DNA from: Cognatishimia activa
GTDB taxonomy: Bacteria; Pseudomonadota; Alphaproteobacteria; Rhodobacterales; Rhodobacteraceae
DNA length: 64,000 bases
Assembly: GCF_026016445.1 (NCBI RefSeq)
Contig: NZ_CP096147.1
Span: forward strand, 1,276,501 to 1,340,500
Reading direction: 5' to 3'
The notes beneath the pieces were generated by a model. That model was not told the origin of the DNA and searched no databases. It saw only the letters and a program-made list of their open reading frames with translations. Positions 42,234 to 44,533 of the stretch are shown in pieces; the first letter of the stretch is position 1; every line of letters begins with the position of its first letter. The translations under genes and the position numbers were made by a program.

Positions 42234-42596
42234 ATGACTCAGGAAAACGATCCCGTAGAGGGCACACCTCTGATCACGCCATCAAGCATCGAACACCCGC
42301 TGTTTGATGCCTCTGTTGAAGCTGTGCGCAGCGTCTATGACCCTGAGATTCCAGTGAATATCTATGATCTCGGCCTCATCTACACCATCGACATCAACGA
42401 TGAAAACGAGGTGAATGTGATCATGACCCTCACTGCACCGGGCTGCCCTGTTGCTGGTGAAATGCCAGGCTGGGTACAAGAAGCCATCTCTGGTGTAGCC
42501 GGTGTGAAGACCGTGGATGTTGCCCTTGTGTGGGAACCCCCATGGGGCATGGAAATGATGAGCGACGAAGCCCGTTTGGAATTGGGCTTCATGTAA
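42234..42596 (+). CDS. SUF-associated Fe-S assembly protein (SufT-like, MIP18 family)
   Basis: A 120-aa DUF59/MIP18-fold protein. DPEIPVNIYDLGLIYTI (about residues 36-52) and LTAPGCPVAGEMPGW with the conserved Cys (about 64-78), then WEPPWGMEMMSDEARLELG at the C terminus, are diagnostic. It helps mature Fe-S proteins. In roseobacters it is usually within or near the suf operon; here it stands alone with its own terminator, but an A-type carrier follows about 1.6 kb later. About 40 N-terminal residues precede the domain. Confidence 0.88.
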   Translation: MTQENDPVEGTPLITPSSIEHPLFDASVEAVRSVYDPEIPVNIYDLGLIYTIDINDENEVNVIMTLTAPGCPVAGEMPGWVQEAISGVAGVKTVDVALVWEPPWGMEMMSDEARLELGFM

Positions 42597-42599
42597 ACC

Positions 42600-42622
42600 A
42601 CGGCCCTTCGGGGCCGTTTTTC
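42600..42622 (+). terminator. Terminator after the SufT-like gene
   Basis: A compact ACGGCCC-TTCG-GGGCCGT tetraloop hairpin followed by TTTTC. Confidence 0.85.
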
Positions 42623-42653: not shown

Positions 42654-42791
42654 GCACCCAATTTAGGGTGCGTTTGGCATTATGCAGCCTATTTTGGGCG
42701 CTATTGCAAATATGCAACCAAAATAGGCTGCATTATCCATATAGCAACCAAAATAGGTTGCGTTTAATCATTCGCAACCTATTTTGGGTGC
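42654..42791 (+). promoter_or_regulatory. Five 18-bp palindromes with exact 30-bp period upstream of satD-like gene
   Basis: Palindromes occupy 42654-42671, 42684-42701, 42714-42731, 42744-42761 and 42774-42791. Each has a 6-bp left arm (GCACCC, GCAGCC, GCAACC, GCAACC, GCAACC), a 6-bp AT core (AATTTA, TATTTT, AAAATA, AAAATA, TATTTT) and a 6-bp right arm (GGGTGC, GGGCGC, GGCTGC, GGTTGC, GGGTGC). The four 12-bp spacers are AT-rich. The start-to-start distance is exactly 30 bp each time. The last unit ends one base before the ATG at 42792 and covers the ribosome-binding region. The likely ligand is the satD-like gene product (autoregulation, inferred). Confidence 0.9.
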
Positions 42792-43436
42792 ATGACAAAC
42801 GACAAAATTCAGCTGGTAGCAGTGTTTACCGGGGATCTGGTTGGATCAACCAATCTGACGAAAGCGCAGATTGATGCTGCATTCAGCCTGCTCGAAAACT
42901 GCGCAAAACGGGCTGAAGAGTGGCATGGAACTTCACACAGTTTCTCCCGTCACCGAGGGGATGGATGGCAAGTCATTCTTGAGCATCCTAAGTACGTCCT
43001 TCGATTGGCGATCATATTCCGAGCAGCGCTGAAATCACTAGGCCCAGAATTTGACACCTATATCGGCATTGCTGACGGCAAAGTGGATGTTTCAGACCAA
43101 ACCGATCTAAACAAAAGAAATGATAGGGTTTTCATAGATTCTGGCCGCGCTTTAGAAGCTGTGAAATCCGGTCCAAAACTCGATATCCACATGGCATACG
43201 ACAGTAACTCAGCTGAAGCCGCGGCAATTACCCTAGCCGATAAAATTGTCTCCGACTGGACCCCAGCACAAGCTGAAGCAATCACGCAAATGCTAATCAA
43301 CACGAGTCCACCAAATTACACTAAATTAGCAAAAATTTTAGGAAAATCACGACAGACTGTTACCAAGACACTCACGGCTGCGGGTCTTCATAGTATTTCA
43401 ATTGCAATAAATCTCATGGAACAAACCGATGATTGA
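42792..43436 (+). CDS. SatD-like protein with C-terminal helix-turn-helix
   Basis: A 214-aa protein with a nucleotide-cyclase-like N-terminal fold: AVFTGDLVGSTNL (10-22, GDLVGS loop), RHRGDGWQVIL (53-63), IGIADG (91-96) and SGRALE (117-122). This is the SatD layout, and residues about 176-200 (YTKLAKILGKSRQTVTKTL) form a helix-turn-helix. The SatD family has no settled biochemical function; it was named in Streptococcus in an acid-tolerance operon. Sections of the gene (43081-43140, 43321-43380) are only 33-38% GC by count, unlike its neighbours. The ATG directly abuts a palindrome. It overlaps the DUF3307 gene by 8 bases. Confidence 0.75.
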   Translation: MTNDKIQLVAVFTGDLVGSTNLTKAQIDAAFSLLENCAKRAEEWHGTSHSFSRHRGDGWQVILEHPKYVLRLAIIFRAALKSLGPEFDTYIGIADGKVDVSDQTDLNKRNDRVFIDSGRALEAVKSGPKLDIHMAYDSNSAEAAAITLADKIVSDWTPAQAEAITQMLINTSPPNYTKLAKILGKSRQTVTKTLTAAGLHSISIAINLMEQTDD

Positions 43437-44160
43437 AACCATAGTCGCCCTCTTCGCGGCTCATGTTTTGGCCGATTATGTGTTTCAAACCAACAAGATG
43501 GTCACGCGCAAGAATGAACTGCCCTTTCTCGCTTACCATGGCGTCATCGTCCTTGGCACCGCCATTTTAGCGACCGGAAGCATTGCAATTCCGATCTTCA
43601 TTCTTACTGGCCTGCACATACTGACGGATTGGATCAAAACCCAATTCAATGACGGGATTGAAGCACATCTCTCCGACCAAATCGTACATCTGGCAACGCT
43701 GACTGCCGTTGCCGCCTTCGCGCCTGATATTTGGAGCGAAGGCGTTTGGGCCCCGGCCCCAGAATTTACGCCCCATGCCATGCTTCTTATAGCTGGCGCG
43801 ATCTACGCGACGCGTGCCGGAGGTTTTGCTGTTGGTATTCTGATGACCCCTTACGGCCCCTCCTTTTCCAAAGACAGCCTGCCCGGAGGCGGCAAGATGA
43901 TCGGCCTACTCGAAAGAGGACTGATCTATGTACTCGTGTTGGCGGGACTGCCGATCGGGATTGGTTTTCTTGTTGCTGCAAAATCCGTGTTAAGATTTGA
44001 GACAGCGAAGGAAGGCGATGCGGCCGAAAACAGAAAACGGTCTGAATACATCATCATAGGCACGCTGGCTTCTTTCGGCTGGGCCATTTTGGTCAGCCTC
44101 GCAATTTTGTTTCTTCTGGCACAGCTGCCAGACCTTGGCATTGCAATGCCCAAGCCCTAA
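43429..44160 (+). CDS. DUF3307 membrane protein
   Basis: A 243-aa integral membrane protein with about six hydrophobic segments. The family pattern is visible at the N terminus: FAAHVLADYVFQTNKM (about 8-23), LPFLAYHGVIV (about 31-41) and LHILTDWIKTQF (about 61-72). The C-terminal half carries LLERGLIYVLVLAG. Its ATG lies within the satD-like gene (8-base overlap), so the two proteins are made together. DUF3307 function is unknown. I recall SatD-like and DUF3307 genes as neighbours in other bacteria, which supports a functional pair. Confidence 0.8.
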   Translation: MIETIVALFAAHVLADYVFQTNKMVTRKNELPFLAYHGVIVLGTAILATGSIAIPIFILTGLHILTDWIKTQFNDGIEAHLSDQIVHLATLTAVAAFAPDIWSEGVWAPAPEFTPHAMLLIAGAIYATRAGGFAVGILMTPYGPSFSKDSLPGGGKMIGLLERGLIYVLVLAGLPIGIGFLVAAKSVLRFETAKEGDAAENRKRSEYIIIGTLASFGWAILVSLAILFLLAQLPDLGIAMPKP

Positions 44161-44182: not shown

Positions 44183-44533
44183 ATGTTCGGCATTCCAGGC
44201 AAACAGGCGGTCACTCTGACCCCGGCGGCAGCAAAGCAAATCGTGAAACTGATGGAACGTGATGGCCATCAGGGCTTGCGTATTGGCGTCAAGAAGGGCG
44301 GCTGCGCGGGCATGGAATACACCATGGAATATGTCGATGAGGTCAATCCGATGGATGAGACTGTCGAACAGGATGGTGCACGCGTCATGATCGCGCCGAT
44401 GGCACAGATGTTTCTCTTTGGTACAGAGATCGATTATGAGGTCTCTCTGCTTGAAGCGAGCTTCAAGTTCAAAAACCCAAATGTGACCGAGGCCTGTGGC
44501 TGCGGGGAATCCATTAAATTCGCTGATATGTGA
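44183..44533 (+). CDS. A-type Fe-S cluster assembly accessory protein (SufA/IscA-like)
   Basis: A 116-aa HesB-fold scaffold or carrier. C41 in KKGGCAGMEYTM and C105/C107 in ACGCGESIKF are the cluster ligands. A 22-base gap separates it from DUF3307; AAAGGAG lies before the ATG. It complements ErpA at 22640. A hairpin terminator ends the transcript. Confidence 0.93.
   Translation: MFGIPGKQAVTLTPAAAKQIVKLMERDGHQGLRIGVKKGGCAGMEYTMEYVDEVNPMDETVEQDGARVMIAPMAQMFLFGTEIDYEVSLLEASFKFKNPNVTEACGCGESIKFADM

Follow-up and report, generated by a model that had tools for sequence, protein, structure and literature searches.

A phased array of five dyads adjoining a SatD-like gene of Cognatishimia activa: a probable autoregulatory operator with a predicted built-in leaderless promoter

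Among described regulators, NrdR works most like the system reported here. The available part of PMC12051234 presents it as a nucleotide-sensing repressor with an ATP-cone, whose dimers need two palindromes at a fixed spacing in the promoter; it adds that an NrdR box can include the -35 element, that three boxes can occur, and that binding is best at integer helix turns, with a 15–16 bp spacer and about 3 turns from centre to centre. Cooperative binding along repeated DNA sites has been described for BldC, whose sites are direct repeats according to the portion of PMC5859096 that was accessible. On the protein side, the SatD family (PF16264) represents the same general protein type as the regulator studied here, by way of weak matches of 5/60 relatives, and the class III nucleotidyl cyclases (Ma1120, bPAC, Rv1900c) share its cyclase-like domain, which is here fused to a helix-turn-helix. 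In the accessible portions of the literature, the SatD family is mentioned in a Fusobacterium annotation paper and DUF3307, the family of the partner protein, in a phage genome paper; PMC4886424 was rejected as a relevant source, as its available part treats DUF2652 and not this protein family. Literature searches found no published description of the array and regulator as a system.

The locus lies in a stretch of 64,000 nucleotides of C. activa DNA, which is called the window below. The two palindromes, fixed spacing and promoter overlap that the cited part of the NrdR source describes are also found in its array of dyads. The spacing differs from that given for NrdR, as the centres of the dyads here and in relatives are 28–30 bp, or 2.7–2.9 turns, apart, and so does the protein, NrdR combining a zinc-ribbon with an ATP-cone where this regulator has a helix-turn-helix and a cyclase-like fold. 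Neither zinc-ribbon nor ATP-cone was found in the fold of the regulator, among its Pfam matches, or among the 25 families shown for 60 relatives. Unlike NrdR, the only target seen here is the regulator's own operon, with up to five units. The likeness to BldC lies in the repeated sites, and the difference in their form, dyads at a strict period of 28–30 bp here as against the direct repeats of the BldC source cited. We consider it highly likely that the array is an autoregulatory operator of the gene that follows, the dyads of which would be bound by dimers of the encoded protein that block a built-in leaderless promoter; it would be a multi-dyad operator with an unusual period, a promoter coincidence and a sensor domain in its regulator. 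The features of the locus, in order along the window, are the following.

42234–42596: SUF-type gene (Pfam FeS_assembly_P), upstream of the array.
42600–42617, + strand: intrinsic-terminator-like hairpin behind the SUF-type gene (one found by the scan, mean of 0.4 in shuffles).
42654–42671, no strand: dyad unit 1, GCACCC.AATTTA.GGGTGC, read directly and matched by pattern.
42684–42701, no strand: dyad unit 2, GCAGCC.TATTTT.GGGCGC, read directly; the weakest, with arms 4/6.
42714–42731, no strand: dyad unit 3, GCAACC.AAAATA.GGCTGC, read directly and matched by pattern.
42744–42761, no strand: dyad unit 4, GCAACC.AAAATA.GGTTGC, read directly and matched by pattern; its right arm supplies the predicted -35.
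42758–42763, + strand: predicted -35, TTGCGT (conserved part TTGC), from the class-wide pattern, with a 16-bp spacer to the -10.
42774–42791, no strand: dyad unit 5, GCAACC.TATTTT.GGGTGC, read directly and matched by pattern; adjoins the start codon.
42780–42785, + strand: predicted -10, TATTTT, the core of unit 5, from the class-wide pattern; transcription would start at about 42792, the A of the ATG.
42792–43436, + strand: SatD-like regulator of 214 aa, with a class III cyclase-like domain (about residues 4–155) and a C-terminal helix-turn-helix.
43350–43379, + strand: recognition-helix codons, residues 187–196 (R187, Q188, K192), with helix limits from the predicted structure, and covariation.
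43429–44160, + strand: all-helical DUF3307 protein; its gene shares 8 bp with the regulator gene and is likely co-transcribed with it.
44183–44533: second Fe-S type gene, after the DUF3307 gene.

Direct reading of the array (42654–42791) confirmed the five palindromes and the drift-free 30-bp period of the original prediction, all four spacings between the 18-bp dyads being 30 bp, and the last unit does abut the ATG, ending at 42791 with the start codon at 42792. The complementarity of the arms, counted by eye, is 6, 4, 5, 6 and 5 of 6 for units 1 to 5, unit 2 being a weak palindrome. Within 42684–42791 of the window, inverting unit 3 or unit 4 nearly reproduces unit 5. The orientation switch that had been claimed for the 6-bp core is present in the window, with TATTTT in units 2 and 5 and AAAATA in units 3 and 4, but the cores listed for the relatives, compared by eye, do not repeat it.

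A protein search for relatives of the gene matched 65 of 295 genomes of the family Rhodobacteraceae, own genome included, and 75 named loci bore Rhodobacteraceae-type or unclassified alphaproteobacterial names, except one 'Proteobacteria bacterium'. The 140 family loci reduced to 125 distinct ones (15 duplicate pairs) and to 124 usable ones after the truncated L146 was dropped. A scan free of any motif, which required arms of at least 5/6, half-site identity of at least 9/12 and a spacing of 28–30 bp, found a similar pair of dyads in 75 of these 124 loci, compared with 2 of 369 control regions and with an average of 0.0 loci in 20 rounds of dinucleotide shuffling; distances between paired dyads other than 28–31 and 56–60 bp occurred in one case. 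Strong phased chains were present, in the motif-free scan of Rhodobacteraceae and other Pseudomonadota, upstream of 129 of 165 relatives (100/124 in the family set and 29/41 outside it) and upstream of 0 of 825 shuffled sequences. The array is therefore conserved with the gene, and the possibility, raised with the original prediction, that no relative would carry it clearly does not apply.

The period of the array is 30, 29 or 28 bp, by lineage. Within the Rhodobacteraceae, classes and half-sites were assigned with a relaxed scan that was informed by the motif and excludes some bases, giving a 30-bp class of 49 loci with half-site GCANCC (spacings of 30 in 98 cases, 29 in 15 and 31 in 1) and a 29-bp class of 67 loci with mostly NNAAGY half-sites (29 in 90, 28 in 15 and 30 in 4). 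The same scan reported no array in 8 of the 124 family loci, two of which were explained by eye: L099 was counted as 'none' with a mis-called start and has a 30-bp array, and L068 has a degenerate array that the scan missed. The six remaining relatives without an array (L023, L042, L044, L046, L052 and L054) all carry Q or K instead of R187. In L052 there is an overlap between the gene and the stop of the one before it, as though the gene had been drawn into that operon.

Matches to the gene were found in 5 of 337 genomes of a class-wide sample (3 from the family, the other 2 only over about residues 5–97), in 16 of 349 of a phylum-wide sample (6 from the family and 10 from other classes, one of these weak and partial), and in 35/207 and 7/194 genomes of two orders outside the class. 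Six relatives are on plasmids, of Pseudoalteromonas (2), Vibrio, Enterobacter, Sphingomonas and Segatella copri (Bacteroidota). The 41 loci outside the family comprised 36 from the phylum-wide and two-order samples and 5 of the 6 plasmid records; duplicates, the weak and partial match L189, and L225 and L226, which had no tblastn hit, were left out, as were 5 of the 35 matches in one order that came without a locus, and L177, from the family, was viewed and not counted. Periods in these outside loci were 28 bp (33 spacings) or 29 bp (14 spacings), and their 29 strong chains include that of L228, which runs into the gene start and is probably spurious. In Vibrio lentus there are three TTAGCC dyads at 28-bp intervals, all with perfect arms. 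By eye, the Sphingomonas and Segatella plasmid copies had no convincing array upstream, and viral contigs yielded no relative in a search whose single-protein query picks up close relatives only.

Exact two-unit sites of the two main half-site types were found nowhere but at this gene. Among the 295 family genomes, two exact GCANCC dyads at a period of 30 bp occurred in 8 (14 sites) and two exact GCAAGY dyads at a period of 29 bp in 9 (10 sites); every one of these two-unit sites lies directly upstream of this gene, so that they are found in 17 of the 65 gene-bearing genomes and nowhere else, and the reversed-pattern control gave none. Single dyads were scanned in the own genome only, where GCANCC-N6-GGNTGC had 11 forward-strand matches, 4 of them in the array, and the reversed control had 2. 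A genome-wide regulon is unsupported in this genome, as the other 7 matches all sit inside open frames of 549–1477 nt. A search with a two-mismatch pattern was too noisy for use.

The regulator was predicted with a pLDDT of 93 as a protein with a C-terminal helix-turn-helix, the recognition helix of which spans residues 187–196, and both the predicted structure and its Foldseek matches, which include the cUMP synthase 7r65, indicate a class III cyclase fold for the N-terminal domain. D15 is present in 164 of 165 relatives (one has a gap) and D57 in all 165; both align to aspartates of Ma1120, and we take them to be the two metal-binding aspartates of class III cyclases. Residues F114, S117 and G118 dominate at what is presumably the place of the catalytic (transition-state) Asn and Arg in these cyclases (positions 114 and 117–118), the sequence alignment to Ma1120 ending at residue 96. 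Because the expected catalytic positions read otherwise, the domain is probably a sensor, likely for a nucleotide, and not an enzyme. The regulator had no Pfam match at E 0.001, and SatD PF16264 was not among its matches at E 1; of 60 aligned relatives, 5 matched that family with E no higher than 1, the lowest value being 7e-4. Since the window protein does not reach the PF16264 gathering cut-off, we call it SatD-like only. Its best NCBIfam match, parB_part (E 6e-4, 19.6 bits against a cut-off of 58.45), reflects a resemblance of the helix-turn-helix only.

A DUF3307 gene follows the regulator gene in all 161 testable loci, 4 of the 165 being too short, and the SUF-type gene precedes it in 102 of the 161. 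The DUF3307 protein probably resides in the membrane, judging from its hydrophobic sequence. Its model is all-helical (pLDDT 90), and a Foldseek search against the PDB returned nothing better than E 0.68, an outcome that points neither to a new fold nor to a function. H12, D16, H37, H63, D67, D83 and H87 are invariant among 44 aligned sequences, and these seven His/Asp residues in the first 90 positions resemble the metal site of a membrane enzyme. The constancy of this partner, the patchy distribution of the gene (65 of 295 family genomes), the plasmid copies and the cyclase-like fold with its cUMP synthase match could also indicate a defence function of the pair, as a module of Pycsar-like or toxin-antitoxin-like kind, of which the array would merely be the autoregulation. 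One of the plasmid copies, L227 of the Sphingomonas insulae plasmid NZ_CP048421.1, has the pair between a TIR-domain gene and Pycsar-effector and nucleotide-cyclase genes, a neighbourhood that suggests a possible defence link; it has an overlapping upstream ORF and no array. However, PADLOC-DB 2.0.0 returned 0 families at E 1 for both window proteins, the recurring position behind the same SUF-type gene is unlike that of a mobile island, and the presumed catalytic Asn/Arg positions are occupied by F114 and S117–G118. We regard a defence role as rather unlikely, and it is compatible with the autoregulatory operator proposed above.

A terminator-like hairpin stands behind the upstream SUF-type gene, so that a new transcription unit probably begins at the array. 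The window hexamers TTGCGT and TATTTT are weak, and a generic promoter scan of the window found no promoter at the array; the prediction of a promoter comes from the pattern across the loci of the 30-bp class. Last dyads of this class have a TATAWT-like core: TAnnnT occurs in 44 of 49 of them, in 11 of 49 next-to-last dyads and in 2 of 63 further upstream. The free position of the right arm is T, giving TTGC, in 48 of 49 next-to-last units, as against 22 of 63 units further upstream (p 3e-13) and 17 of 49 last units. TTGCNN, 16 bp and TATAWT would form a sigma-70-type layout, as read from the sequences. In the 29-bp class, the last dyad stands at -20 in 26 loci; there, 17 bp separate a TTGC at -35 from a TA at -12, and the remainder of the -10 is less canonical (T96 A88 T53, with C69 at the last place).

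The array adjoins the ATG in 87 of the 116 Rhodobacteraceae loci of the two classes. In 12 loci of the 30-bp class the last dyad stands at -18, and in 26 of the 29-bp class at -20; the -10 then falls at -12 to -7 from the ATG, and transcription should therefore start at the ATG itself. A further 35 loci of the 30-bp class have their last dyad at -20 or -21, and for these the same geometry would predict a leader of a few bases. Shine-Dalgarno-like motifs occur in 5 of the 87 loci with the array near the ATG as against 14 of 29 loci where it is far away (p 1e-6), some 'far' loci being mis-calls of the start or the chain (L021 has a later ATG with a unit at -18, and L053 a weaker unit at -20). 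The original prediction had unit 5 covering the region of the ribosome site; a Shine-Dalgarno is indeed missing there, but its absence is better explained by the predicted leaderless promoter in the last two dyads than by a covered site.

The simplest reading of this arrangement, and the most likely mode, is that the regulator-DUF3307 operon is under negative autoregulation, since proteins on the last two dyads should exclude RNA polymerase, as judged from the promoter overlap. Many loci have more dyads than would be needed over the -35 and -10 (45 of the 49 loci in the 30-bp class and 33 of the 67 in the 29-bp class have at least three), which would suit an activator or a ligand-dependent dual switch, with upstream dyads recruiting polymerase and the last two repressing. 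We judge this distinctly unlikely: the -10 and -35 of the 30-bp class fall within the last two dyads (in 44 and 48 of 49 loci), the classical place for repression, and nothing tested points to activation.

The identity of the binder was addressed by comparing half-site bases with residues of the encoded protein at 145 loci. Six of these (L195, L199, L204, L205, L208 and L209) were re-phased by hand to relatives with a like helix-turn-helix, L187 and L199 were added below the threshold, and L228, L180 and L069 were removed. Bases 1, 2 and 5 track residues 187, 188 and 192, each the best of columns 3–210, with phi values of 0.98, 0.92 and 0.92 and runners-up at 0.58, 0.82 and 0.74. At base 1, G goes with R187 (117/118), A with Q (10/10), and T with P, T, A or K (17/17). 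At base 2, C goes with Q188 (112/112), T with V, S, P or A (26/26), and A with Q, P and A (4, 2 and 1), 4 of the 7 loci with A thus keeping Q188. At base 5, C goes with K or R192 in 66 of 67 loci, and other bases with K/R in 1 of 78. In the Rhodobacteraceae set alone (116 loci, 214 columns), residue 187 was best for base 1 and residue 192 for bases 5 and 6, residue 189 led narrowly for base 4 (0.27 vs 0.26), and for base 2, where 7 loci have A, no column stood out and 188 was not best.

On a tree built from residues 3–154 only, a quick tree with many weak branches, base 1 and residue 187 changed 6 and 7 times, with 6 changes on common branches; base 2 and residue 188 changed 9 and 5 times, with 5 in common; and base 5 and residue 192 changed 6 and 4 times, with 4 in common. 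The four runner-up columns had 0 or 1 branch in common with the base changes. Well-supported branches provide 2–4 independent pairs per trait, concordant or neutral and none discordant, which is too few for significance. K185, a column that follows the half-site class too, was rejected as the reader of base 5, because L135 combines K185 with Q192 while its base 5 is G, and because 1 of its 7 changes falls on a branch where base 5 changes. This covariation of putative DNA-contacting residues with site bases, together with the occurrence of the exact two-unit patterns at this gene alone, backs the earlier proposal that the encoded helix-turn-helix protein is the binder, which we regard as very probable.

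Binding of the array by another regulator would be in keeping with L229, on the Enterobacter kobei plasmid, which has R187 and T at base 1, against the base-1 rule, and whose dyads do not fit the code. By eye, L229 has two 17-bp TCAACC dyads with a 5-base core, 29 bp apart and about 90–135 bp upstream of 2492, and the exception reflects either another binder or a different core geometry. For the array in general, a foreign regulator is very improbable, as the half-site bases follow the encoded recognition helix at three positions, changing on the same tree branches, and this gene is the sole place in 295 genomes where the two-unit patterns were found. Two loci outside the class, L180 and L217, have upstream repeats of ambiguous dyad phase together with R187 and R192; the L180 phase can be read as TCACAT or GTGATT, and the two loci could show which of two phases is the real dimer site.

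The + strand of the array folds far better than shuffled sequences (-74.1 vs -37.2 kcal/mol, z -10), as such palindromes would anyway, with long hairpins joining units 2–3 and units 4–5, but an RNA role of the repeats, as a structured leader or as hairpins controlling translation or termination, was rejected as highly improbable, given that promoter elements within the last two dyads would leave the array untranscribed, that no Rfam match was found at gathering scores, that the hairpins need core orientations which the relatives, by eye, do not have, and that RNA gives no reason for half-sites that follow a helix-turn-helix.

Returning to the autoregulatory operator, we propose that each 18-bp dyad is contacted by dimers of the encoded protein, whose C-terminal helix-turn-helix would read every half-site with residue 187 at base 1, residue 188 at base 2 and residue 192 at base 5. 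A sigma-70-type promoter would lie within the last two dyads, with TTGC of the next-to-last right arm as the -35 and the last A+T core as the -10, and transcription starting at or just before the ATG would give a leaderless mRNA without a Shine-Dalgarno. Occupied sites would shut this promoter, and the cyclase-like domain, with both presumed metal-binding aspartates conserved, would act as a sensor, probably of a nucleotide. Neighbouring dimers would touch, which is the likely reason for the constant spacing of the upstream dyads. These dyads, spaced at 30 bp in 55 cases and 29 bp in 10 in the 30-bp class, and at 29 bp in 35, 28 bp in 5 and 30 bp in 2 in the 29-bp class, are held as strictly as the promoter pair, so that promoter geometry alone does not set the period. 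This strictness indirectly favours the cooperative filament or wrapped complex of the original prediction, which we regard as conjectural. At 10.5 bp per turn, neighbours placed 28–30 bp apart should wind round the DNA and not lie on one face.

A tentative extension, which we hold as conceivable and no stronger, is that a retired cyclase domain has become a nucleotide-gated coupler. The helix-turn-helix domains would pair on the dyads and the cyclase-like domains would pair between neighbouring dyads, in the manner of a daisy chain, to build a helical filament with one step per 28–30 bp over the leaderless promoter. The filament would be made or broken by a nucleotide, the dimer of the cyclase domain would set the period, and the task of the DUF3307 protein would be to produce the ligand, degrade it or respond to it.

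With the binder, sites, code, promoter and start all predicted in silico, a gene pair annotated as a hypothetical protein and a DUF3307 protein becomes a testable regulatory system, one that is found in Pseudomonadota and on one Bacteroidota plasmid. The relatives form a natural set in which changes of the recognition helix go with changes of the operator, and the locus offers a case of predicted promoter elements built into a phased operator array. The system may also serve as an entry to the roles of DUF3307 and of the cyclase-like sensor.
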